From Capnocytophaga sp. oral taxon 863 str. F0517 (GTDB lineage Bacteria > Bacteroidota > Bacteroidia > Flavobacteriales > Flavobacteriaceae), in NCBI RefSeq assembly GCF_000466425.1, contig NZ_KE992164.1:62987-99489 (forward strand): a DNA stretch of 36,503 nt, in the 5' to 3' direction. The translations under genes were made by a program, and so were the position numbers. Below, piece by piece: positions 2,753 through 33,319 of the stretch; position 1 is the first letter of the stretch; each line of letters begins with the position of its first letter. Under the pieces are notes generated by a model. That model searched no databases, had not been told where the DNA came from, and was given only the letters and a program-made list of their open reading frames with translations.

Positions 2753-3487
2753 CTACTTATCCGCAACATAGATGGTTGCAACTCCTAAGAACTGAGGTTC
2801 GAACTTCACCTGAGAGAAGCCTATTTCCTCCCTTAGGATCTTGGCCAATTGTGCCCCAAAAGGAAACTTAGCCGCCGACTCGGAGAGGTAGGCATAAGCA
2901 TTCTGGTTCTTGGCCAGTAACTTACCCATCAGGGGAACGACAAACTTGGTATAGAGCTTATACCCCTGCTTATAGGGGAAGCGGGTAGGCACAGAAGTCT
3001 CCAATATAACCAACCTTCCGCCTGGGCGTAGTACCCGCCTAAGCTCGGAAAGTCCTTTTTCCAGATGCTCGAAGTTGCGCACCCCGAAGGACACCGTAAC
3101 GGCATCGAAGCTGCCATCGGCAAAGGGCAAGCGTTCACTATCGGCCAGCTGCATATGGATACGCTCCGAAAGCCCCAGCGCCTTGACCTTCTGCTCCCCT
3201 ACCGAGAGCATCCCCTGGGAGATGTCCACCCCTGTAATTTGTGCTCCTGCAATCTTGGAAAGCTCTATAGCCAAATCGCCCGTCCCGGTAGCCACATCAA
3301 GAATTGTGCCAGCCTTTACCACTGCCACTTTTTCCCTAACACGCCTGCGCCAGCGAATATCCATCCGAAGGGTCATAACGCGATTGAGGCCATCATAGGA
3401 GGGGGAGATATTGTCGAACATCTCCTGTACTTGTTCTTTCTTTCCCTTATCCGAATGCTTGTCGGGGGTTACAATCTCTGCTTGCAT
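2753..3487 (-). CDS. ubiE: Demethylmenaquinone methyltransferase UbiE/MenG
   Basis: 244-residue class I SAM-dependent methyltransferase for the final C-methylation in menaquinone synthesis, the quinone expected in this lineage. Visible motifs are the SAM-binding LDVATGTGDLAIEL, the acidic VDIS after strand 2, VSFGVRNFEHLEKGL (UbiE/COQ5 signature) and LRPGGRLVILE. The frame stays open 16 codons further upstream to 3535, but a Bacteroidota promoter (-7 box 3505-3512) lies inside that extension, so ATG 3485-3487 is the real start. First gene of the ubiE-porT-dsbD operon, with the porT start directly abutting the stop codon. Confidence 0.95.
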   Translation of the reverse strand: MQAEIVTPDKHSDKGKKEQVQEMFDNISPSYDGLNRVMTLRMDIRWRRRVREKVAVVKAGTILDVATGTGDLAIELSKIAGAQITGVDISQGMLSVGEQKVKALGLSERIHMQLADSERLPFADGSFDAVTVSFGVRNFEHLEKGLSELRRVLRPGGRLVILETSVPTRFPYKQGYKLYTKFVVPLMGKLLAKNQNAYAYLSESAAKFPFGAQLAKILREEIGFSQVKFEPQFLGVATIYVADK

Positions 3488-3504: not shown

Positions 3505-3536
3505 CAAAGATACAACAATAATGACTAATGACCAAT
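3505..3536 (-). promoter_or_regulatory. ubiE promoter (TTGG-N19-TATCTTTG)
   Basis: On the minus strand TATCTTTG (3505-3512) is the -7 box and TTGG (3533-3536 region) the -33 box, spaced about 19 bases, matching the Bacteroidota sigma-A consensus TTG-N19-TAnnTTTG. It fixes the ubiE start at 3487. Confidence 0.8.
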
Positions 3537-3685
3537 GACTAATGACTAATTTTTATCAGCCGACAAATAACAAACCTTATTAATGACAAGTGACTAATGA
3601 CTAGTGACAAATATCATTCAAAAATGATTCGTCACTTATCATTAGTCACTAGTCATTAGTCACTAGCCGTTAGTCGTTAGTCACT
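3520..3685. repeat. GACTAAT-word repeat with perfect hairpin
   Basis: Many copies of TGACTAA / TTAGTCA and close variants fill the gap between two minus-strand genes. A perfect 20-base inverted pair lies at 3589-3608 and 3645-3664 with a 36-base loop. It sits directly after the stop of the barrel gene at 3684, so it may serve as that gene's terminator; this role is inferred. Confidence 0.85.
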
Positions 3686-5033
3686 ATTGATAGATATTTC
3701 CGAAGCGGAGCCCTACGAAGGCATTTAGTTCTTTGGCAGTACCGATAAGGTTTCCAAAGACACTACGAGAGCCTAATACCAAGGGGCCTACTTGAAGCGC
3801 TACCCCAGCGTTGAGGCTGGATACACTGTTATAGCTAATAGGCAGATAGGCACCGAAAACGCCTCCTCCCCAGTGAGTTTCATAGCGTGGGGTAAGTACA
3901 AAATCATTGCCATAGTAGGCGTTGTACTCATTCTTAGGCACCATATTGAGTTGGCTGGAGAAGTTTAGGTATACCCCATCTACGAAGCGGTAATCCAAAT
4001 TCACATTCAAGGTTGTAGGTAAGGATGATTTGAAGGTGGTACCTCCCAGTTCTTTTGGGCGTAAATCAGCTTCTTTCAAGGCTTTTTCTATATCATTAAG
4101 CTTGATGCTTTTGTTTACCAAGTTATACGCATAAGAGTTTCGGTTGGTCTCATAGCTAAGCCTACCCAAATCAAGCAAAGACACTCCTACTTTAAAGCGA
4201 TAAGGCACGTGTCCATCACAGTTAGGACAGCCGTCTTCACTATATTCGTAGATTACCCCCAAGTCCACCCCAACAGTAGTAGCTGCGGTACCGAAGAAGT
4301 CGGGAGAGCCGTTGAGTACATCCAAGCCTCCACTTCTTACCTCTGCTTTGGCATTCCCCACACGAAGTACCATATCTCCATCGCTATCCTTTCCTAAGGA
4401 GAAGTTGTTTGCATTAACCCCTTCAAATCCCATACGGAAGCTACCTGTACCCTGTACAAGCTTAACCCCTACTCCTACACGGAGCAAGTTATAACCATCG
4501 TTCATCGCAGTATAGCTCCATACAGCGCCTATTTCTCTGAAGGCATTGGCCAATAGGTTCATATCAGAAATACCTTCTAGGTTTCTAAACCCATCAATAT
4601 CCATTTTCTTACCATTGATAAGCGCATTTAGCAAGTTGGCATCGATACCTGTGGTACCAGCCATCAGGCGCATACGAGAAACCAAGCCTACGGCATTTTC
4701 TTTATTGACACGCACAATGAAGGAGGGACCTACCACATCGGCATTGATACCTGCATTGACAGAAGTAGCCTCTCCTGCGGCTAATTTCTTGGTAAATTCA
4801 TTGAAAGAGCCTTCCAAGTCCCAATTCAGGCCAATGGCATTGCTATTCAAATTGGCATCAATGGAAAGAAGTGTCGCATCCCAAGGGCGTGCCCCGAGGG
4901 CATGGGCTGGATTGGAGAGCGTGGTAAGCACCCCTCCATAGGTACTGGTTCTAAGCCCAGTGAAAGACTGTTGAGCTATCCCCTGATAAGCTACCAAGCC
5001 TAATACGGAAAGAAGAATTTTTTTCATAACCAT
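3684..5033 (-). CDS. Outer-membrane beta-barrel protein (DUF5723-like)
   Basis: 449-residue secreted protein of unknown function. It starts with a signal peptide (MKKILLSVLGLVAYQGIA) and continues with a motif RTSTYGGVLTTLSNPAHALG, followed by long stretches of alternating polar and hydrophobic residues and a C-terminal aromatic strand (LNAFVGLRFGNIYQ), as in FadL-like or DUF5723 outer-membrane proteins. A CPNCDGH pair occurs mid-protein. Two ATGs are possible, 5033 and 5027; the second fits a standard MKK signal start equally well. It has its own promoter (-7 box 5054-5061) and is followed by the GACTAAT hairpin repeat, so it looks monocistronic. The family name is from memory of the N-terminal motif; the outer-membrane location is better supported than the family. 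Confidence 0.65.
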   Translation of the reverse strand: MVMKKILLSVLGLVAYQGIAQQSFTGLRTSTYGGVLTTLSNPAHALGARPWDATLLSIDANLNSNAIGLNWDLEGSFNEFTKKLAAGEATSVNAGINADVVGPSFIVRVNKENAVGLVSRMRLMAGTTGIDANLLNALINGKKMDIDGFRNLEGISDMNLLANAFREIGAVWSYTAMNDGYNLLRVGVGVKLVQGTGSFRMGFEGVNANNFSLGKDSDGDMVLRVGNAKAEVRSGGLDVLNGSPDFFGTAATTVGVDLGVIYEYSEDGCPNCDGHVPYRFKVGVSLLDLGRLSYETNRNSYAYNLVNKSIKLNDIEKALKEADLRPKELGGTTFKSSLPTTLNVNLDYRFVDGVYLNFSSQLNMVPKNEYNAYYGNDFVLTPRYETHWGGGVFGAYLPISYNSVSSLNAGVALQVGPLVLGSRSVFGNLIGTAKELNAFVGLRFGNIYQ

Positions 5034-6575: not shown

Positions 6576-6649
6576 TGGTCCAGCTTGGGCTCGAACCAAG
6601 GACCCCCTGATTATGAGTCAGGTGCTCTAACCAGCTGAGCTACAAGACC
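6576..6649 (-). tRNA. tRNA with anticodon CAT (elongator Met type)
   Basis: 74-nt cloverleaf on the minus strand. The acceptor starts GGTCTTG and pairs with CTGGACC (one T-T mismatch and one G-T wobble). The D arm is GCTC..GAGC, the anticodon stem CCTGA/TCAGG with loop CTCATAA gives anticodon CAT, the variable loop is GGGTC, and the T arm is CTTGG/CCAAG with loop TTCGAGC. The discriminator is A and the full CCA is not encoded. The GGTC variable loop and D arm resemble elongator tRNA-Met. tRNA-Ile2, which also has a CAT anticodon modified to lysidine, shares the loop and cannot be strictly excluded by eye. Confidence 0.93.
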
Positions 6650-7763: not shown

Positions 7764-7901
7764 TGTTAGTGGTTAGTGGTTAGTTGTTAGTTTTTAGTGG
7801 TTAGTGGTTAGTCATTAGTGATTAGTTACTGATCACTAGTCATTAGTCACTCGTCATTAGTCACTGGTCACTCGTCATTAGTCACTATTGTTGGTCACTA
7901 T
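7764..7901. repeat. GTTAGTG / CATTAGTCACT repeat tract
   Basis: Tandem heptamers of the GGTTAGT type turn into CATTAGTCACTCGT units across the divergent gap between ytxH and accD. Unlike the tracts at gene ends, no long inverted arms are present, so no terminator-like hairpin is predicted here. Confidence 0.85.
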
Positions 7902-9418: not shown

Positions 9419-9537
9419 GATAATTAGATAATTAGACAATTAGACAATTAGATAATTTGCCAATTAGCTAATTAACAAATTGGCAAATTGGCTCATCGAC
9501 AAATTGACTCATTGACAAATTGGCAAATTGACTCATT
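9419..9537. repeat. AATTAGACA / AAATTGGC repeat tract
   Basis: Runs of AATTAGA(C/T)A units change into CAAATTGGC and TTGACTCA units. Inverted arms TTTGCCAATT (9456-9465) and AATTGGCAAA (9478-9487) can pair. The tract fills the whole gap between cysK and dtd. Confidence 0.85.
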
Positions 9538-15007: not shown

Positions 15008-17137
15008 ATGAGACGTATCACACTACTTATGGCCTTATGCCTACCACTGCTATGCTTCGCTCAAAAAGAACGCGTGGCCACCGATAAGGCCAACTATGAT
15101 CCTAAGCTATGGACCAAGCGCTTGTATAACCTACAGTGGATCCCTGGTACCGAAACCTACATGTACTACAAAGATGGGAATATCGCTATCTTTGACCCCA
15201 AGGGGGAAGAAGTAGGTGGTATCAATATCGCAAAACTTTCCCAAACCTACGAGCTCAAAAGCTATCCCGACATCGTATATGTGGACGGCAGCCAAGTGGT
15301 GGTGGAAACACCCGACCATTTCTATATCTATGACTACCTCATAGAGCGCCCTATGTTCGAGATCGCCCTGCCTGAAAAAGCGGAAAACAGAGCCTATAAC
15401 CATGAGCAAAGAGCGGTGGCTTATACCATGGATAACAACCTCTTCCTGGCTACTGAGGCCGAACCTCGCTTCCCTATCGCAGTTTCCAAAAATGAAAATA
15501 TCATCTCCGGACAGGCCATCCATCGCAATGAGTTCGGGATCCAAGAGGGAATCTTTTGGTCTCCCAAAGGGAACTATATCGCCTTCTATGAAAAAGATGT
15601 AACCCATGTGGGGGATTATCCCTTGGTGGATATCAATACCACTCCAGCCACTCTCAAAAACATCAAATATCCTATGGCCGGCACTCACAACGAGATTGCC
15701 CGCGTAGGGGTATTTGACCTCAAGGAGCGTAAAACCAGCTACTTGCGTATCGATAACCGAGATGCCCACTACCTGACCAACCTCGCTTGGAGTCCCGACG
15801 AGAATCAGCTCCTCTTGGCCGAGGTAAAGCGCAGCCAAGACCACTATGACCTCAATAGCTATGACCGTGCCTCCGGACAGAAAATACAAACCCTATGGCA
15901 GGAAAGCAACCCCAAATGGGTAGAGCCTGAAAACGCCGCTATCTTCCTGCCCAACAAGCCTCAAGAGTTCATCTGGATGAGCGAAAAAGACGGCTTCATG
16001 AACCTATATCTATGCGATGCCTCCAGCGCTAAGTCCCGCCAACTCACCTCCTTCAAGTGGGTTGTTCAGGAGGTATTAGGCTTCGATGCCAAGGGAGAAA
16101 ACGTCTTTATCGGAGGCACTGGCGAAGATCCTCGAGAAAGACATATCTATAGTGTAAATATCCGAAAAAGTACTGTAAAAAAACTCACCACCAAGGAGGG
16201 CGCCCACGATGCCTATCTAAGCGATAATGGTCGCTATTTCCTTGATGTCCACAGCGCCCTAAATACTCCCTACAACGTCTCTTTGTTCGATATACAGGCC
16301 AACACCTCCAAAACCCTCTATGAGGCGGAAAACCCCTTGGCCAACTATCAGCTCGGTAAGGTAGAGCTACTCACCCTCAAAGCCGACGATGGTACCCCGC
16401 TCTACGCAAAGATGGTCAAGCCCAGTGATTTCGACCCTGAAAAGAAATACCCCGTATTGGTATATGTATACGGAGGCCCACACGACCAGCTGGTTATCAA
16501 TCAGTGGAATGGAGCCACCTACCCTTGGATGCTCGCCTTGGCCGAGAATGAGCAGTACCTTGTCTTCACCTTGGACAATCGCGGTTCCGAGAACCGAGGC
16601 TTCGCCTTCGAGAGTGTGATCCACCGCAACTTGGCTACCTATGCGATGAAAGACCAAATGACCGGTGTGGAATACCTCAAGTCCCTCCCCTATGTCGATT
16701 CCAATCGCTTGGCTATCTATGGATGGAGCTTCGGTGGCTTCCTTACCTCCTCCCTCATGTATCGCCATCCGGGTACCTTCACCACTGCAATAGCGGGAGG
16801 CGCCGTGATCGACTGGAAATATTACGAGGCAATGTATGGCGAACGCTATATGGATACCCCTGAGGAAAACCCCGAAGGCTATCAGGACAACCTCGTTACC
16901 CGCTATATCAAGAACCTTCAGGGCAATATCCTCTATATCCATGGCTACATCGACCCCATTGTACTCCCTCAGCACATGCTGGCTATCTCCCAAGCGGCCA
17001 TTGATGAAGGTAAGGTCATCCACTCCTTCCTATACCCCAATCAGGAACACAACGTCCGTGGAGCGGAATCCATCCACCTGACCAAAATTATCGTAGATTT
17101 CCTACTTAAAAACAACAAACCAGCAACCAATGACTAA
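15008..17137 (+). CDS. S9 family peptidase (DPP IV-like)
   Basis: 709-residue exported serine peptidase. A signal peptide ends near LLCFA-Q (residue 18). Residues about 80-440 form the beta-propeller (DPPIV N-terminal domain; repeated W/Y-S-P-D/K-G-N blades such as FWSPKGNYIAFYE and AWSPDENQLLL). The C-terminal alpha/beta hydrolase domain carries S574 in YGWSFGGF, D649 in HGYID and H681 in NQEHNV. The Asp motif reads HGYIDPIV where most relatives have HGxxDDxV, so the second Asp is replaced by Pro while the catalytic one is retained. It likely removes N-terminal dipeptides from periplasmic peptides, useful in an asaccharolytic or proteolytic lifestyle. Monocistronic, between the rpmA terminator and a convergent hairpin. 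Confidence 0.92.
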   Translation: MRRITLLMALCLPLLCFAQKERVATDKANYDPKLWTKRLYNLQWIPGTETYMYYKDGNIAIFDPKGEEVGGINIAKLSQTYELKSYPDIVYVDGSQVVVETPDHFYIYDYLIERPMFEIALPEKAENRAYNHEQRAVAYTMDNNLFLATEAEPRFPIAVSKNENIISGQAIHRNEFGIQEGIFWSPKGNYIAFYEKDVTHVGDYPLVDINTTPATLKNIKYPMAGTHNEIARVGVFDLKERKTSYLRIDNRDAHYLTNLAWSPDENQLLLAEVKRSQDHYDLNSYDRASGQKIQTLWQESNPKWVEPENAAIFLPNKPQEFIWMSEKDGFMNLYLCDASSAKSRQLTSFKWVVQEVLGFDAKGENVFIGGTGEDPRERHIYSVNIRKSTVKKLTTKEGAHDAYLSDNGRYFLDVHSALNTPYNVSLFDIQANTSKTLYEAENPLANYQLGKVELLTLKADDGTPLYAKMVKPSDFDPEKKYPVLVYVYGGPHDQLVINQWNGATYPWMLALAENEQYLVFTLDNRGSENRGFAFESVIHRNLATYAMKDQMTGVEYLKSLPYVDSNRLAIYGWSFGGFLTSSLMYRHPGTFTTAIAGGAVIDWKYYEAMYGERYMDTPEENPEGYQDNLVTRYIKNLQGNILYIHGYIDPIVLPQHMLAISQAAIDEGKVIHSFLYPNQEHNVRGAESIHLTKIIVDFLLKNNKPATND

Positions 17138-17257: not shown

Positions 17258-17295
17258 AATAAGGGGTGCCTCATCTGGTGAGCGCACCCCTTATT
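17258..17295. terminator. Convergent terminator after S9 peptidase
   Basis: Arms AATAAGGGGTGC (17258-17269) and GCACCCCTTATT (17284-17295), with further CTCA/TGAG pairing in the loop. It lies between two convergent genes and can serve both strands. Confidence 0.85.
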
Positions 17296-17299
17296 TAAT

Positions 17300-17359
17300 G
17301 AAGAGTGAAAAGTGAAGAGTGAAGAACGCTTTTCACTCTTCACTTTTCACTTTTCACTT
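17300..17359. repeat. GTGAAAA-word repeat forming a perfect 20-bp hairpin
   Basis: Tandem AGTGAAA/AGTGAAG words on the left and TTCACTC/TTTTCAC words on the right. Arms 17304-17323 and 17332-17351 are exactly complementary with an eight-base loop. It abuts the metY stop at 17354. Confidence 0.9.
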
Positions 17360-18622
17360 AAATGCTTTTTTCAAATCATTCTGTAAGTCCTCTACATCCT
17401 CCAAGCCCACGGAAAGACGGATAAGATCGGGGGTCACCCCAGTGAGTACTTGAGCCTCCTCGCTAAGCTGTTGGTGGGTCGTACTGGCCGGATGAATGAT
17501 CAGCGATTTCGTATCGCCCAAGTTGGCCAACAAGGAGAAGATCTTTACATTATTGACCGTCTTCTTAGCAGCCTCAAAACCGCCTTTGAGGCCGAAGGTA
17601 ACCAAACCGCTCTGTCCTCCTTGTAAGTATTTGTCAGCCAAAGCCTTATAGGGACTATCTTCCAATCCTGGGTAGTTCACCCAAGCCACCTCAGGTTGGG
17701 ATTTGAGCCATTGGGCAAGGGCTAAGGCATTCTCGCTATGCTTCTTCACTCGGACAGCTAAGGTCTCAAGGCTCTGCAAAATCTGGAAAGCATTGAATGG
17801 GCTTAGAGCAGTTCCCAAATCGCGCAAGCCCTCTATACGTAGCTTGGCCACAAAAGCCAAGTTCCCCAAGGCCTCATGCAACACCAACCCATGATAACCC
17901 GCAGAAGGCTCGGTAAATTCAGGGAATTTGCCACTACTCCAGTCAAAGTTACCCCCATCAATAATCGCACCCCCGAGGGAGGTGCCATTACCGCCTATAT
18001 ACTTGGTAAGCGAATGCACCACTATATTAGCCCCATACTTGATCGGATTTAGCAGCACAGGAGTCGCTACGGTATTATCTACAATCAAAGGAATTTGGTG
18101 CTTTTGAGCCACTTTAGCTATAGCTTCTATATCCAGCACATCCAGCTTAGGGTTGCCCAACGTTTCTATAAAGATAGCACGGGTATGCTCCTGCACAGCC
18201 TTGTCAAAGTGAGACACCTCCTTAGGATCTACAAAGGTAGTGGTAATCCCCAAGCGAGGCAGGGTGACATTGAGCAAGTTATAGGTACCCCCATAGAGGC
18301 TGTTGGACGACACAATATGATCTCCTGTACGCAAGAGGGTCAGGAAGGTAGTTGTCAGTGCCGCAGCTCCGGAGGAGGTCACCACTGCTCCTACTCCTCC
18401 CTCTATGGCAGCCAAGCGCTGCTCCAGCACATCGTTGGTAGGGTTGTTCAACCGGGTATAGATATAGCCCGGCACAGATAGGTTAAAGCGGCCAGCTGCA
18501 TCGTCCGCATTTTCAAACACATAGGAGGAGGTTTGGTAAATAGGCACTGCCTGTGCCCCTTGGTGAGCCAAAGGCTCATAGCCCGCATGTAGGGCTTTAG
18601 TAGCTTTTTTGAAGTTTGCCAT
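17354..18622 (-). CDS. metY: O-acetylhomoserine sulfhydrylase (MetY)
   Basis: 422-residue Cys/Met-metabolism PLP enzyme (PF01053). Motifs are YIYTRLNNPTNDVLEQRLAAIEGG, TSSGAAA, SLYGGTYNL and the PLP lysine K207 in VVHSLTKYIGG; SLLANLGDTKSLIIHPASTTH near the C-terminus points to the O-acetylhomoserine aminocarboxypropyltransferase/sulfhydrylase branch, which makes homocysteine from sulfide. The frame opens 49 codons further upstream, but the promoter at 18668-18698 lies in that stretch and MANFKKATKALHAGYEP is the family start, so ATG 18620-18622 is used. The extension region has no protein-like features. It is flanked by hairpins on both sides, so monocistronic. Confidence 0.94.
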   Translation of the reverse strand: MANFKKATKALHAGYEPLAHQGAQAVPIYQTSSYVFENADDAAGRFNLSVPGYIYTRLNNPTNDVLEQRLAAIEGGVGAVVTSSGAAALTTTFLTLLRTGDHIVSSNSLYGGTYNLLNVTLPRLGITTTFVDPKEVSHFDKAVQEHTRAIFIETLGNPKLDVLDIEAIAKVAQKHQIPLIVDNTVATPVLLNPIKYGANIVVHSLTKYIGGNGTSLGGAIIDGGNFDWSSGKFPEFTEPSAGYHGLVLHEALGNLAFVAKLRIEGLRDLGTALSPFNAFQILQSLETLAVRVKKHSENALALAQWLKSQPEVAWVNYPGLEDSPYKALADKYLQGGQSGLVTFGLKGGFEAAKKTVNNVKIFSLLANLGDTKSLIIHPASTTHQQLSEEAQVLTGVTPDLIRLSVGLEDVEDLQNDLKKAFK

Positions 18623-25733: not shown

Positions 25734-26060
25734 ATGTATTGGATTTTACTCATTATAGCAGGCCTTTTTGAGGTCGCTTTTACTTTCTGCCTTGGCAAAG
25801 GAAAAGAAACACAAGGTACCACGATGTACCTATGGTACGGAGGTTTTTTGGGCTGCACTTTTGTGAGCATGTCCCTACTGATGAAGGTTTCCCAACACCT
25901 TCCCTTAGGTACTGCCTATGCCGTATGGACAGGTATCGGAGCCGTAGGCACTGCTCTTGTGGGAATTTGGATCTTTAAGGAACCCGCTTCCTTCTGGCGC
26001 CTCTTCTTCCTCACCACTCTTATAGGCTCAGTCGTAGGACTCAAAGCTGTATCTAGTTAG
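25734..26060 (+). CDS. sugE: SMR family exporter (SugE/Gdx type)
   Basis: 108-residue small-multidrug-resistance protein with four membrane helices (about 3-20, 30-51, 58-78 and 85-103). The essential glutamate is E13 in IAGLFEVAFTF, and LPLGTAYAVWTGIGAVGTALVGI is typical of the SugE/Gdx guanidinium-exporter branch rather than EmrE. It works as an antiparallel dimer in the inner membrane. No guanidine riboswitch is evident in the upstream 250 bases. It lies directly after an AAAACTC repeat and is followed by a repeat-derived hairpin. Confidence 0.9.
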   Translation: MYWILLIIAGLFEVAFTFCLGKGKETQGTTMYLWYGGFLGCTFVSMSLLMKVSQHLPLGTAYAVWTGIGAVGTALVGIWIFKEPASFWRLFFLTTLIGSVVGLKAVSS

Positions 26061-26140
26061 TTTTGAGTTCATAATTTTGAGTTTATAGTTCTTCTGTTCG
26101 TAGAAAACTCTGAATTAAAAACTCAAAACTCAAAACTAAC
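26058..26140. repeat. AAAACTC-word repeat with inverted arms
   Basis: Starts at the sugE stop codon. TAGTTTTGAGTT (26058-26069) and AACTCAAAACTA (26127-26138) are exactly complementary, giving a long-range 12-bp stem around further copies of the word. It probably ends the sugE transcript. Confidence 0.8.
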
Positions 26141-26186
26141 TTGGCATACTTTTTGCTGCAAACCGTCCCTGAAAAACAACTGTAAA

Positions 26187-27041
26187 ATGAAAAAGATATT
26201 CATTATCGCCAGTATGCTATGCTTCTTTTCTGAAGCCTTGGCACAGATCAAGCTCCCCCAACCCAGCGTAAAGGGTAGCATAGAACAAATGGTCGGGCTT
26301 ACCGAAGTGGAAGTAAGCTACACCCGCCCCGCGAAGCGCGGTAGAAAGATCTTCGGAGAACTGGTGCCCTACAATCGTGTATGGCGTACCGGTGCCAATG
26401 AGAATACGACCATCTCCTTCAGTGAAGATGTCACCATTGATGGCAAAGTACTCCCCAAGGGGAAATATGCCCTCTATACCAAACCCGAAACCGGCAAGTG
26501 GACTTTCTACTTCTACAAGAAAAACGACAACTGGGGACTCCCTCAGCAATGGGACGAAAGCCAAATCGCCCTACAAGCGGAGACCAAGCCTGCTCCTTAC
26601 TACATGGAAACCGAATATCTTACCATTGAGTTAAACCCTATCAACTATAACGATGGGGAAATAGCCATCCGTTGGGACAAAACGATCGTGAGACTACCCT
26701 TCCATACCCAAACCCAAGAGCAGTCCATGGAGAACATCGCTGACAAAATCACTGCCACTTCTTCCGCTCGTGATTACTACGATGCCGCCAACTACCTACT
26801 GACCTCCAATGGCGACCTCGACAAAGCTAACGAACTGATTACCAAGTCCCTCAGCATGCAGAAGGATGCACCTTACTATATGTATCGTGCCCAAGCGATC
26901 ATCCTCTCCCGATTAGGAAAGACCAAAGAAGCCATCAAGGCGGCAGAAACCTCCCTACAAAAAGCCAAAAAAGAAGGCAATGAGGATTATGTAAAAATGA
27001 ATCAAGATTCCATTTCCCAGTGGAAGAAAAAACGAAAATAG
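26187..27041 (+). CDS. DUF2911 domain-containing exported protein
   Basis: 284-residue protein with a signal peptide (cleavage after EALA-Q, about residue 20). The DUF2911 domain spans about 20-165: LPQPSVKGSIEQMVGLTEVEVSYTRPAKRGRKIFGELVPYNRVWRTGANENTTISFSEDVTIDGK is near-diagnostic. The C-terminal third (about 175-280) is helical and TPR-like (AANYLLTSNGDLDKANELITKSL, YMYRAQAIILSRLGKTKEAIKAAETSL). Function is unknown. Only a poor promoter (one extra base within the -7 box near 26147-26156) was found, so expression may depend on read-through. It is followed by the GACAAGT hairpin repeat. Confidence 0.88.
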   Translation: MKKIFIIASMLCFFSEALAQIKLPQPSVKGSIEQMVGLTEVEVSYTRPAKRGRKIFGELVPYNRVWRTGANENTTISFSEDVTIDGKVLPKGKYALYTKPETGKWTFYFYKKNDNWGLPQQWDESQIALQAETKPAPYYMETEYLTIELNPINYNDGEIAIRWDKTIVRLPFHTQTQEQSMENIADKITATSSARDYYDAANYLLTSNGDLDKANELITKSLSMQKDAPYYMYRAQAIILSRLGKTKEAIKAAETSLQKAKKEGNEDYVKMNQDSISQWKKKRK

Positions 27042-27126
27042 TGACAAGTAACTAATGACAAGTGACTAATGACAAGTGACTAATATTCAGTGTGATATTA
27101 GTCACTTGTCATTTGTAATTGGTCAC
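27042..27126. repeat. GACAAGT-word repeat with perfect 19-bp hairpin
   Basis: Tandem GTGACAAGTAACTAAT words. Arms 27068-27086 and 27095-27113 are exactly complementary around an eight-base loop. It sits between two convergent gene ends (DUF2911 and the pseudogene). Confidence 0.9.
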
Positions 27127-27746
27127 TATTTATACATATCAATATCTATCCAGGCATTAAGCCTATGAAGTAGTTCTAATATTTTGTTATCAAAAACAAT
27201 GGCAGGGCAGCTCTCCTCAGGGCTCATTTCTACACAAAAAAGTAATTTTGGGTTAGGGGGAAATGCTTCCTTTTTCTACTAACATGTCTTTATAATTTCC
27301 TTTCTTTGTATAGAAAGTAAAGACAATAGCCGTCATTACATAATCCTCGCAACCTTCACAACACGCTTTTATAAGATCTTCCCCCAAAATGTCTGCTACA
27401 AAAATATGGTCTTCTTGTTTGAACTCAAAAGCCGTATATTCACGATATAGGAAAAATCATCCCCATTAGGATCACAACAATAACGGTCATATACTTTACG
27501 CCTCATCTTCTTATCAAGATGTTTGGCTATATATTCATCTATAAAAAACTGGCTTCCCTTAAAGCAACCTCCTATTACTGAGGCTTTAAAAGACTTACGA
27601 ACATAGGTTACTTTTTCAATTTCTCCAGTAGGAATCTTCTCATCAAAGCAAATCTGCGTTCCATCTACAAAGGTAACACACCGCTGCTGACTATAAGTAT
27701 TTCCTACCCATAAAATCCCTAAAAGGTAAAATATCCATCTTGTCAT
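27126..27746 (-). pseudogene. Frameshifted secreted protein (two frameshifts)
   Basis: The first part (27446-27746) encodes MTRWIFYLLGILWVGNTYSQ (signal peptide) and about 80 more residues. At 27445-27449 an extra AT dinucleotide shifts the frame; removing two bases joins it to YREYTAFEFKQEDHIFVAD..CCEGCEDYVMTAIVFTFYTKKGNYKDM. In the G5 tract at 27256-27260 one base too many shifts it again, and the third segment continues LLFCVEMSPEESCPAIVFDNK..LNAWIDIDMYK to a stop at 27126-27128. Correcting both gives one frame of about 205 codons. The product is unknown. As read, translation would stop at residue 116 (27396). It is the last gene behind two lipoprotein genes (8-base gap). Recent inactivation, phase variation and sequencing error are the alternatives. 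Confidence 0.82.
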
Positions 27747-27754
27747 AGTAACTA

Positions 27755-28759
27755 TTATTTGATTCCTATCTTGATATACATTCGTTGTTTGTTAAGCTCT
27801 CCTTTGCTATCTAAAAAGCTATTCATGGGATTGATAGAAACGTATAAATAACCATTTTTGGAGAAGAAAACATCATTCTCATCTATATTATAAATCTTCC
27901 AATTGCTAAGTTCTGCAGTTATAATAGGTTTAGAAACAAAGGGGGTGATACTTTCTACTCTATACAAAGAAAAGCTGTCAGGTTCAGAATAAATTTCTGT
28001 TGTTATCATAAAGAGATGTTTCCTATTGGGTGATATAAAGGGCAGATGATCAAAGGTAATTTTTCTTCCCGTTGTTTTATCTATGGTAATCTCACCATAA
28101 CCATCTCCTACTTGGCTACTTACCACATATTGATTTAAAGTGTCTATTCTTCCTATATATTCATAACTTTCATCTACTCCACTCAGTTCACCAATAGTAT
28201 CTTTAAATTTAACAACAGCTTCTTCACAAGCAATACTAAGTATTTTGCCTTTCTTTTGAAAAGTAAGTGTATCTCCAATAAAGAAATCTACCTTATTTTT
28301 AATAGCTTTTTGATACTCTTCTTTTGTGATAAGACTGATAGATAAATATGTAGAAAGACTTCCAGAAGTAGCGTTTCTTTGGCTACCTTTCAATATGAAA
28401 TTAGACTCCTCTAATTCCTCCTGAGTAAGTTTTAATTTCTCATAGTTATCGGCATCTTCTTTTAAAATATATTCTTCTTCATTGCCTTCATTACATTTGT
28501 AGAAGTGTTCAGAAACACCTACTACCCATAAAGGTTCTCCATAACTATACTGAGATTGAGCCTTAACATTTATGTCAGGAATTTTATATTTGGCAGCTCC
28601 TTCCTTAATCACATACAACTCCTTCTCCACAGGCACAAAGACCTCTTCTTGTTGCTGCTTTTCCTCTACTATAGCACTTTCCCCTGCCGGCTGTTGCCCC
28701 TGAAAGAGGTTACAGCTGGTAGATAACAATGTTAAAAAGAATATGATAAAATGTTTCAT
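27755..28759 (-). CDS. Periplasmic-type lipoprotein, paralog A
   Basis: 334-residue lipoprotein of unknown function. The signal peptide ends in the lipobox LSTSC with lipid-modified C16, followed by NLFQGQQPAGES; there is no K-D/E-D/E motif after the Cys, so surface export is not predicted. The mature part starts with an SH3-like stretch (VFVPVEKELYVIKEGAAKYKIPDI..EPLWVVGVSEHFYKC) and continues with about 200 residues of mixed sheet including FISPNRKHLFMITTE and FSKNGYLYVSINPMN. It is a clear tandem paralog of the gene at 28771-29784 (11-base gap), sharing NLFQ.QQPAGES and VFVPVEKELYV. AT-rich, in the accessory block. Confidence 0.68.
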   Translation of the reverse strand: MKHFIIFFLTLLSTSCNLFQGQQPAGESAIVEEKQQQEEVFVPVEKELYVIKEGAAKYKIPDINVKAQSQYSYGEPLWVVGVSEHFYKCNEGNEEEYILKEDADNYEKLKLTQEELEESNFILKGSQRNATSGSLSTYLSISLITKEEYQKAIKNKVDFFIGDTLTFQKKGKILSIACEEAVVKFKDTIGELSGVDESYEYIGRIDTLNQYVVSSQVGDGYGEITIDKTTGRKITFDHLPFISPNRKHLFMITTEIYSEPDSFSLYRVESITPFVSKPIITAELSNWKIYNIDENDVFFSKNGYLYVSINPMNSFLDSKGELNKQRMYIKIGIK

Positions 28760-29796: not shown

Positions 29797-29840
29797 ATCA
29801 GTGTTTTACAATTCATCACCAGTGTGGTGATGAATTGAGG
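29797..29840. repeat. Dispersed palindrome CAATTCATCACCA, copy 1
   Basis: Perfect 13-bp inverted repeat (29809-29821 and 29825-29837) with loop GTG, preceded by TTATCAGTGTTTTA. The same unit with one base changed in the loop occurs at 33250-33293. It lies 34 bases after the stop of the minus-strand YD-like gene, so it may be its terminator. Confidence 0.88.
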
Positions 29841-33003: not shown

Positions 33004-33319
33004 TTAGTTTTCTCAAAAGTGCTATCTTTTCACAAAGGGCTTTTGTATTATGCTGATTAGGAAGGTATTGAATATTTAACAACACATCTGGAACATTACC
33101 TCATTATAACAATGATTCTGTATACAGAATTTATTGGTGAAAATTACAGAATTACGCTTAGTTGTATCATTTTCTCCGTGAAAATCTGTGGAATCCGTGG
33201 GAGAAAAAATATAATTTTGCTTACGTCGAACTCACATTAGTTGTTAGCTATCAGTGTTTTACAATTCATCACCAGCGTGGTGATGAATTGAGGTTCCTAA
33301 TTGGGGCTAGTTTTTTTCT
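33004..33319. other. Gene-free gap with dispersed repeat pieces
   Basis: No ORF. At 33175-33235 are TCCGTGAAAATCTGTGGAAT/CCGTGGGAG and CGTCGAACTCACATTAGTT; a related string (CCGTGGGAGCTTTCG and GTCGAACTCACGTTAGTT) occurs at 25188-25225, after the LRR-like gene. This suggests remnants of a shared mobile or recombination unit. The palindrome copy 2 lies at 33250-33293. Confidence 0.45.
33250..33293. repeat. Dispersed palindrome CAATTCATCACCA, copy 2
   Basis: Perfect 13-bp inverted repeat (33262-33274 and 33278-33290), loop GCG instead of GTG, with the same upstream TATCAGTGTTTTA. It ends 30 bases after the DUF6756-type gene stop, the same relative position as copy 1. Confidence 0.88.

Follow-up and report, generated by a model that had tools for sequence, protein, structure and literature searches.

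Tandem heptamer repeats as candidate gene-end hairpins in Capnocytophaga

Short tandem heptamers lying between genes, known as STRR, are found in cyanobacteria such as Calothrix. Intergenic heptamers with the sequences GGGAATC and GGGGA(C/T)T have been described in Xanthomonas and Nostoc, with 183–186 per Xanthomonas genome, in a paper that also mentions the heptanucleotides of Calothrix (PMC4692102). Pairs in opposite orientation number 70 and 75 in two Xanthomonas genomes and are few in Nostoc, and assembled RNA-seq data revealed that transcripts start or stop more often at the quadruplex-forming repeats than at controls (PMC4692102). Heptamers of the TAACTGA type have been reported from Beggiatoaceae, Cyanobacteria and five Bacteroidetes, Capnocytophaga not being among the five, and two Cyanothece strains differ at these repeats mostly in 7-nt length steps (PMC4679880). 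In the sections of these papers considered here, the function of heptamer repeats, which are known from several phyla, is left open; replacement of terminators is a possible one.

The window analysed in this study is a stretch of 36,503 nt (G000:C82:62987-99489) of a 2.72-Mb draft Capnocytophaga genome, hereafter G000. Its repeats resemble the Xanthomonas heptamers in having period 7, in being mostly intergenic, paired in opposite orientation and few in divergent gaps, and in that the G strand is the coding strand next to stops and the non-coding strand next to starts (PMC4692102). However, Xanthomonas uses one G-rich, quadruplex-capable word, whereas Capnocytophaga uses many AT-rich words; the main text of that paper does not use the word 'terminator', and its parts covered here contain no comparison with terminators at orthologous ends (PMC4692102). 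The TAACTGA repeats are likewise intergenic direct heptamer repeats occurring in Bacteroidetes, but in the main genome most of them precede starts in a single orientation, one case being inverted, and the parts of the paper covered here describe no gene-end hairpins (PMC4679880). The paired uptake sequences of Neisseria share with the present hairpins a repeated inverted word, one preferred order and stem-loops downstream of genes, but consist of one fixed short word, a decamer, rather than tandem arrays of varying words (PMC3388099, in part). Neither heptamer hairpins in Capnocytophaga nor the replacement of terminators by heptamer repeats was the subject of any paper among the literature matches listed, with subscription journals mostly outside. 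The tracts and hairpins of the window are as follows.

3519–3550: TAATGAC tract, upstream of the start of the − strand UbiE-like gene 2753–3487 (TRF; Pfam PF01209).
3581–3612: TAATGAC/AAGTGAC tract, containing the left arm 3589–3608 (TRF, exact-arm search).
3631–3686: GTCACTA tract, containing the right arm 3645–3664 and reaching the stop of the − strand gene 3684–5033 (DUF5723) (TRF, Pfam).
7764–7901: heptamer tract in a divergent gap, G-words followed by C-words, with only a degenerate inverted pair.
17258–17295: ordinary hairpin after the + strand gene 15008–17137, with 12-bp exact arms, a G-rich stem and an RNA fold of −27.3 kcal/mol; it lies 8 nt from the heptamer hairpin 17304–17351.
17299–17359: GTGAAAA/GTGAAGA heptamer hairpin with arms 17304–17323/17332–17351, 2 nt from the stop of the − strand gene 17354–18622 (Cys/Met metabolism PLP enzyme).
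26055–26141: TTTTGAG/CTCAAAA heptamer hairpin with 15-bp arms, the left overlapping the stop of 25734–26060 (SMR family) and the right lying upstream of 26187–27041.
27042–27125: TGACAAG/TGACTAA heptamer hairpin with arms 27068–27086/27095–27113, beginning at the stop of 26187–27041 (DUF2911).

The genes flanking the hairpins are ordinary ones by Pfam (UbiE methyltransferase, DUF5723, dipeptidyl peptidase, Cys/Met PLP enzyme, SMR, DUF2911), and at the Rfam gathering score the sole match in the window was a tRNA (6576–6649), with no known RNA family at the hairpins. The original prediction, made from the letters of the window, placed four exact arm pairs at gene ends, and all four proved to be reverse complements (20, 20, 19 and 12 bp) and to stand at gene ends, with the qualification that two also precede a start. 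The fourth can be extended from 12 to 15 bp (26055–26069/26127–26141). The hairpins 17304–17351 and 27068–27113 occupy convergent gaps, the latter facing the gene 27755–28759 or an uncalled ORF (27396–27746); 3589–3664 and 26055–26141 lie in co-directional gaps, so that the second arm of each at the same time precedes the start of the following gene.

When loops of up to 120 nt are allowed, no other distinct inverted repeat in the window exceeds these four pairs in length, a further 17-bp pair being a second register of the 27042–27125 tract. In five first-order Markov simulations of the window, exact arms (loop 3–80) never exceeded 11 bp, against 20, 20, 19, 17 and 15 bp in the real sequence, and the RNA folds of the four hairpins greatly surpassed those of dinucleotide shuffles in stability (z −7.7, −11.1, −7.0 and −6.2; the − strand of 3560–3690 folds at −51.2 kcal/mol, z −7.7). 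Simulation and shuffles together rule out a chance origin of the arms. The claim that the words are unrelated between loci did not hold: a TGACTAA/TTAGTCA family is common to 3519–3686, 27042–27125 and the right part of 7764–7901, and certain words are present in as many as 15 tracts of the G000 sample. The divergent gap 7764–7901 had been said to carry words and no arms; it has no long exact arms but does contain a degenerate inverted pair (with a local score of 15, where the best of 20 shuffles reached 9), its + strand folding at −41.5 kcal/mol (z −5.1) with G-U pairs and its other strand at −20.5 (z −2.8).

All counts were made on samples, namely 829.5 kb (30%) of G000, 400 kb each of G003, G011 and G016 and 395 kb of G012, these four being relatives of the same genus; for the orthologue comparisons, loci chosen for window genes (L119, L120, L149 and L167) were added, and the window is included unless stated otherwise. 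Genes were called with our own hexamer scorer, which missed some ORFs, e.g., 27396–27746. Gaps shorter than 20 nt were excluded and those with N runs dropped (457/465 retained in G000); the G000 tract gaps numbered 22/87/20 (convergent/co-directional/divergent) before this removal, which differs slightly from the later counts because N gaps were still included. Period-7 tracts were found in gaps rather than in genes (127 vs 2 in G000, 64 vs 8 in G011, 18 vs 1 in G012, 8 vs 2 in G003 and 4 vs 1 in G016), so that the repeats are abundant in some Capnocytophaga species and rare in others. Other periods from 4 to 16 gave 0–21 tracts in G000, except period 14 with 98, and the gaps of G000, once Markov-shuffled, yielded 2 tracts vs 120 real ones (gaps before 15-nt padding). 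Being of period 7, in tandem, between genes and present many times in the 30% of G000 sampled, these tracts have the features of intergenic heptamer SSR/STRR repeats. As a side observation, tracts were abundant where the G+C content of the sample was higher (0.426 and 0.445 in G000 and G011) and rare where it was lower (0.365 and 0.350 in G003 and G016), G012 being intermediate in both G+C (0.393) and tract number, in a series of five species only.

Long arms were distributed unevenly among gap types. Counting at least one arm inside the tract, arms of at least 15 bp occurred in G000 in 10/21 convergent, 7/84 co-directional and 0/20 divergent tract gaps, in G011 in 3/5, 3/44 and 1/15, and in G012 in 1/2, 2/15 and 0/6, respectively; there were none in the 13 tract gaps of G003 or the 11 of G016. 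Pooled over the first three species, the figures were 14/28, 12/143 and 1/41, and the contrast of convergent with divergent gaps was clear (p = 3e-6; without the window 12/26 vs 1/38, p = 3e-5). Arms equally common in promoter gaps, which would be at odds with the original prediction, were therefore not what the sampled 30% of G000 revealed. The contrast was weak when convergent and co-directional gaps were pooled against divergent ones (p = 0.27 at 12 bp, 0.034 at 15 bp), and arms of at least 12 bp in 4/15 divergent tract gaps of G011 count against a strict rule. As is usual for intrinsic terminators, the hairpins follow shortly after stops: 21/23 G000 heptamer hairpins (at least 12 bp) lie within 60 nt of a stop, but 8 of the 12 that share their gap with a start are also within 60 nt of that start. 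Tract-free convergent gaps carried arms of at least 12 bp in 18/37 (G000), 18/30 (G011), 15/29 (G016), 5/24 (G003) and 12/27 (G012) cases; gene-end hairpins are therefore common in the genus with or without heptamers. Since heptamer hairpins in the tract-bearing convergent gaps of G000 (11/21) were no commoner than hairpins in the tract-free ones (18/37), the presence of repeats does not make a hairpin in such a gap any more likely. The view that the repeats are not a passive satellite holds at most for a minority, as 73/100 tract-bearing gene ends in G000 have no heptamer hairpin.

Where a heptamer hairpin stands in a convergent gap, an ordinary terminator, defined as a stem outside the tract plus a T-run, is usually missing. 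In G000 convergent gaps of 30–260 nt it was present in 1/10 gaps with a heptamer hairpin vs 28/37 others (p = 2.8e-4), in three species in 2/14 vs 50/82, and in five species without the window in 1/13 vs 67/113 (p = 5.6e-4). By G000 gene end, it accompanied 1/27 heptamer-hairpin ends, 12/73 other tract-bearing ends and 81/314 tract-free ends. Convergent tract gaps of G000 without a hairpin do not exclude it (7/10), whereas co-directional tract gaps without a hairpin had fewer ordinary terminators than tract-free ones (7/73 vs 38/172, p = 0.02). Because of this co-directional deficit, part of the scarcity may be due to the tract and not the hairpin, although convergent gaps show no such effect. 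A further point against replacement is the window hairpin 17304–17351, which has the ordinary hairpin 17258–17295 at a distance of 8 nt.

A reading of the heptamer hairpins as canonical terminators is not supported, because a U-run (at least 6 T among the 8 nt around the end of the stem) was found at 7/33 heptamer strand-ends in G000 vs 42/60 for ordinary gene-end hairpins. The corresponding figures in G011 were 2/13 vs 37/58. GC-rich stems, typical of intrinsic terminators, are also lacking among the heptamer hairpins of the window, where 17304–17351 has 7 G-C pairs of 20 and the other arms are AT-rich; a simple, looser scan (5 T in 8) did score 17304–17351 as terminator-like on the + strand. 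The two classes also differ in composition. In ordinary hairpins of at least 12 bp from tract-free gaps of all types in the five genomes, the first arm had A over T in 142/186 (T over A in 27, ties in 17), with no clear preference for G over C (85 G, 71 C, 30 ties), whereas in the tract hairpins of the same genomes it had G over C in 39/42 (1 C, 2 ties) and little A order (24, 14, 4).

Comparison of orthologous gene ends also supported a gene-end role. Orthologues were assigned by sequence match alone, as hits within the samples of at least 50% identity reaching to within 5 residues of the end; the 16 comparisons, all that qualified among the 27 G000 heptamer-hairpin ends, came from 12 ends, in G003, G012 and G016, with 3 of the 12 being window genes that gave 6/16 comparisons, while G011 offered none for heptamer-hairpin ends and contributes only to the hairpin-free group. 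Relatives carried a hairpin at the orthologous end in 9/11 comparisons for heptamer-hairpin ends (G003 and G012) vs 12/67 for hairpin-free ends, and in 11/16 vs 18/107 when G016 and G011 were added; the yardstick, G000 ends with an ordinary terminator, was 21/43. Of the 11 G003 and G012 comparisons, 5 were outside the window, with a hairpin in 4 (p = 0.008).

Individual ends suggest that the hairpin can be kept while its words are replaced, as seen by eye at two gene ends in C. gingivalis (locus of ATCC 33624 identified by a 64% protein match to a window protein). At the end of 3684–5033, the hairpin of C. gingivalis consists of GTGGTCA/GTGGTTA words, and that of G003 is an ordinary G-rich stem (by eye); the script scored G003 at 3683 as hairpin-free, where inspection by eye revealed a G-rich stem with one mismatch. 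At the end of 17354–18622, the long perfect stem seen by eye in C. gingivalis is made of AAATGAC/AAATGGC/AAATAAC words and was scored 'canon' because the tract rule did not flag these words; the same end in G003 carries an ordinary terminator. After 27041, the stem of G003 measures 12 bp and contains a single word, with the same right flank as in G000, which we read as probable stem growth and count in favour, and G012 has an ordinary A-run/T-run hairpin. Length steps of 7 nt were not found at the 26055–26141 gap, where G000 and G012 differ by 41, not a multiple of 7.

Taking these results together, the recruitment of heptamer repeats as gene-end hairpins is partly supported, by comparison. 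Period-7 arrays are a normal component of gaps in the G000 genome, and where two opposite arrays face each other directly after a stop, the transcript can form a long stem rich in A and T. This stem occupies the position expected of an ordinary terminator hairpin and is for that reason proposed to take over the role of a gene-end hairpin, which may comprise setting the message end, protecting the 3′ end and, in convergent gaps, blocking transcription from both sides; RNA ends are predicted at the stems. We judge the chances about even that these are gene-end hairpins made of heptamer repeats and doing a gene-end hairpin's job. The gene-end position, the terminator scarcity and the hairpins of relatives speak for the proposal that they are terminators or mRNA 3′ hairpins, but its canonical-terminator part is not supported by the U-run count. 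If correct, the window would hold a natural case of new, perfectly paired gene-end stems arising from simple repeats.

The arm order of the hairpins follows a wider rule, that the G-richer strand points away from the ORF. Within 15 nt of starts (tracts shorter than 14 nt after trimming being dropped), the outward strand had G over C in 41/41 cases in G000 (4 ties), 14/15 in G011, 8/8 in G012 and 3/4 in G003; within 15 nt of stops, it did so in 48/65 (3 ties), 33/37 (1 tie), 7/7 and 2/4, respectively, and in 1/2 in G016, the tract-poor genomes G003 and G016 thus offering few cases of mixed sense. Divergent gaps obey the rule in 10/10 decided cases. Farther than 15 nt from stops the sense is reversed (outward G over C in 4/15, 0/8 and 2/6), as expected if the second arm lies there. 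Tract-free 40-nt flanks of G000 and G011 follow it more weakly (stops 214/393, starts 280/425; tests p = 3e-6 and 1e-8). The rule is not new, having already been printed for the Xanthomonas heptamers (PMC4692102, in the part considered). A supply of stop codons was considered as its cause and rejected: TGA-type words follow stops within 15 nt in 55/63 decided cases in G000 but in 20/32 in G011, which is not clear, while the excess of G over C is seen in both genomes and the Xanthomonas word, as read from its letters, lacks a stop codon. At the gene ends of the window, and at several further ones, the stop of the orthologue is in the same position (by eye), and therefore the tract did not create the stop there.

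The strand rule lends itself to an explanation without any hairpin function, in which arrays grow passively in any gap, the G-richer strand is kept outward from ORF edges, and facing edges give inverted arms as a by-product; little G and no ATG, GTG or TTG before the start would account for one side, and perhaps stop-codon supply for the other. The outward G at both starts and stops across species favours it, as does the G-first order that sets tract hairpins apart from ordinary ones, and we regard it as possible but on the doubtful side. It leaves unexplained the scarcity of ordinary terminators beside convergent heptamer hairpins, the match to hairpin-bearing ends in relatives, the rarity of long arms in divergent gaps even though the rule is obeyed there, and the matching of locus-specific words within a gap, e.g., the 29-bp arms at C89:301193.

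Quite unlikely, in our assessment, is that a mobile palindromic element (REP/REPIN or MITE-like) landed at gene ends and was later decorated by heptamers. The hairpin tip TAATAATCAGNNNGATATTAG is present at 6 genome places with at most one mismatch and at 2 more with two mismatches, against 1 for the reversed control pattern, and the convergent gaps C82a 28173 and C80 33937 have identical 19-bp arms with 22-nt loops differing at 3 bases. Nevertheless, the tip is confined to TGACTAA hairpins, the listed GTGAAAA and TTTTGAG hairpins having other loops (by eye), and a profile search for Y1_Tnp gave no match in G000, G011 and G012. A DNA-level signal such as a cruciform, an uptake sequence or a protein-binding repeat, with gene ends as the least harmful place, would recall the uptake sequences of Neisseria, which form inverted pairs in one preferred order, some being terminators downstream of genes (PMC3388099, in part). 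Uptake sequence pairs use one fixed word, whereas five words each occur in at least 9 G000 tracts and G011 uses others, and the genus includes species with few tracts, G003 having 8 and G016 having 4; we consider this reading very unlikely.

For the origin of the heptamer hairpins, we favour slippage by 7 bases combined with template switching between the arms during replication, which would copy one arm onto the other and therefore keep locus-specific words matched. In gaps with two separate tracts, arms matched over at least 12 bp in 12/34 cis pairs of G000 and 9/22 of G011 (trans 9.1% and 5.4%), the cis arm being the single best partner in just 3/34 and 6/22, and the second tract was inverted rather than direct by 27 to 5 (2 ties) and 16 to 5 (1 tie). 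The RVT_1 profile, like that of Y1_Tnp, had no match in the tract-rich G000, G011 and G012; RVT_1 is present in 7/20 genomes of the genus, the tract-poor G003 among them, and Y1_Tnp (PF01797, RAYT) in 2/20. Given the cis matching, the inverted second tracts and the lack of both profiles, slippage and template switching by the cell's own polymerases would be the simplest origin. The hairpin tip common to about six loci suggests that some copying between loci takes place as well. A template-switch origin of RNA hairpins has published precedent as a way of making and keeping long perfect stems, argued there for RNA genes by ancestral reconstruction, whereas for Capnocytophaga we infer it only (PMC8794818, in part). 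If it is true, these loci would offer a convenient system for watching hairpins being born. A further-reaching and improbable version is that the arrays supply material out of which the hairpin of a given gene end is built anew in each species, with a different word and with both arms changing together, and that the outward-G rule, met here in Bacteroidetes and in print for Gammaproteobacteria and Cyanobacteria (PMC4692102, in the part considered), reflects a shared strand-directed addition of 7-base units at the edges of ORFs, with the units joined head to head, and not selection at each site.

Several other repeats came to light. Two near-identical perfect hairpins of the window (29809–29837 and 33262–33290) have CAATTCATCACCA arms, a GTG or GCG loop and similar flanks, and no further copy with up to 3 mismatches was found in the 829.5-kb G000 sample or the samples of the four relatives. 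In G011 (L078–L097), the hairpins 148868 and 240665 have in common an inverted loop core with GCGCG, and at 336887 and 332103 mirrored heptamer arms surround an ordinary-looking hairpin (both by eye). Gaps of G011 contain 30 period-11 tracts, and those of G000 contain 19 of period 8. A period-8/16 tract of the window (GATAATTA, AATTGGCA) at 9419–9532 has strong inverted similarity, scoring 22 vs a shuffle maximum of 11.
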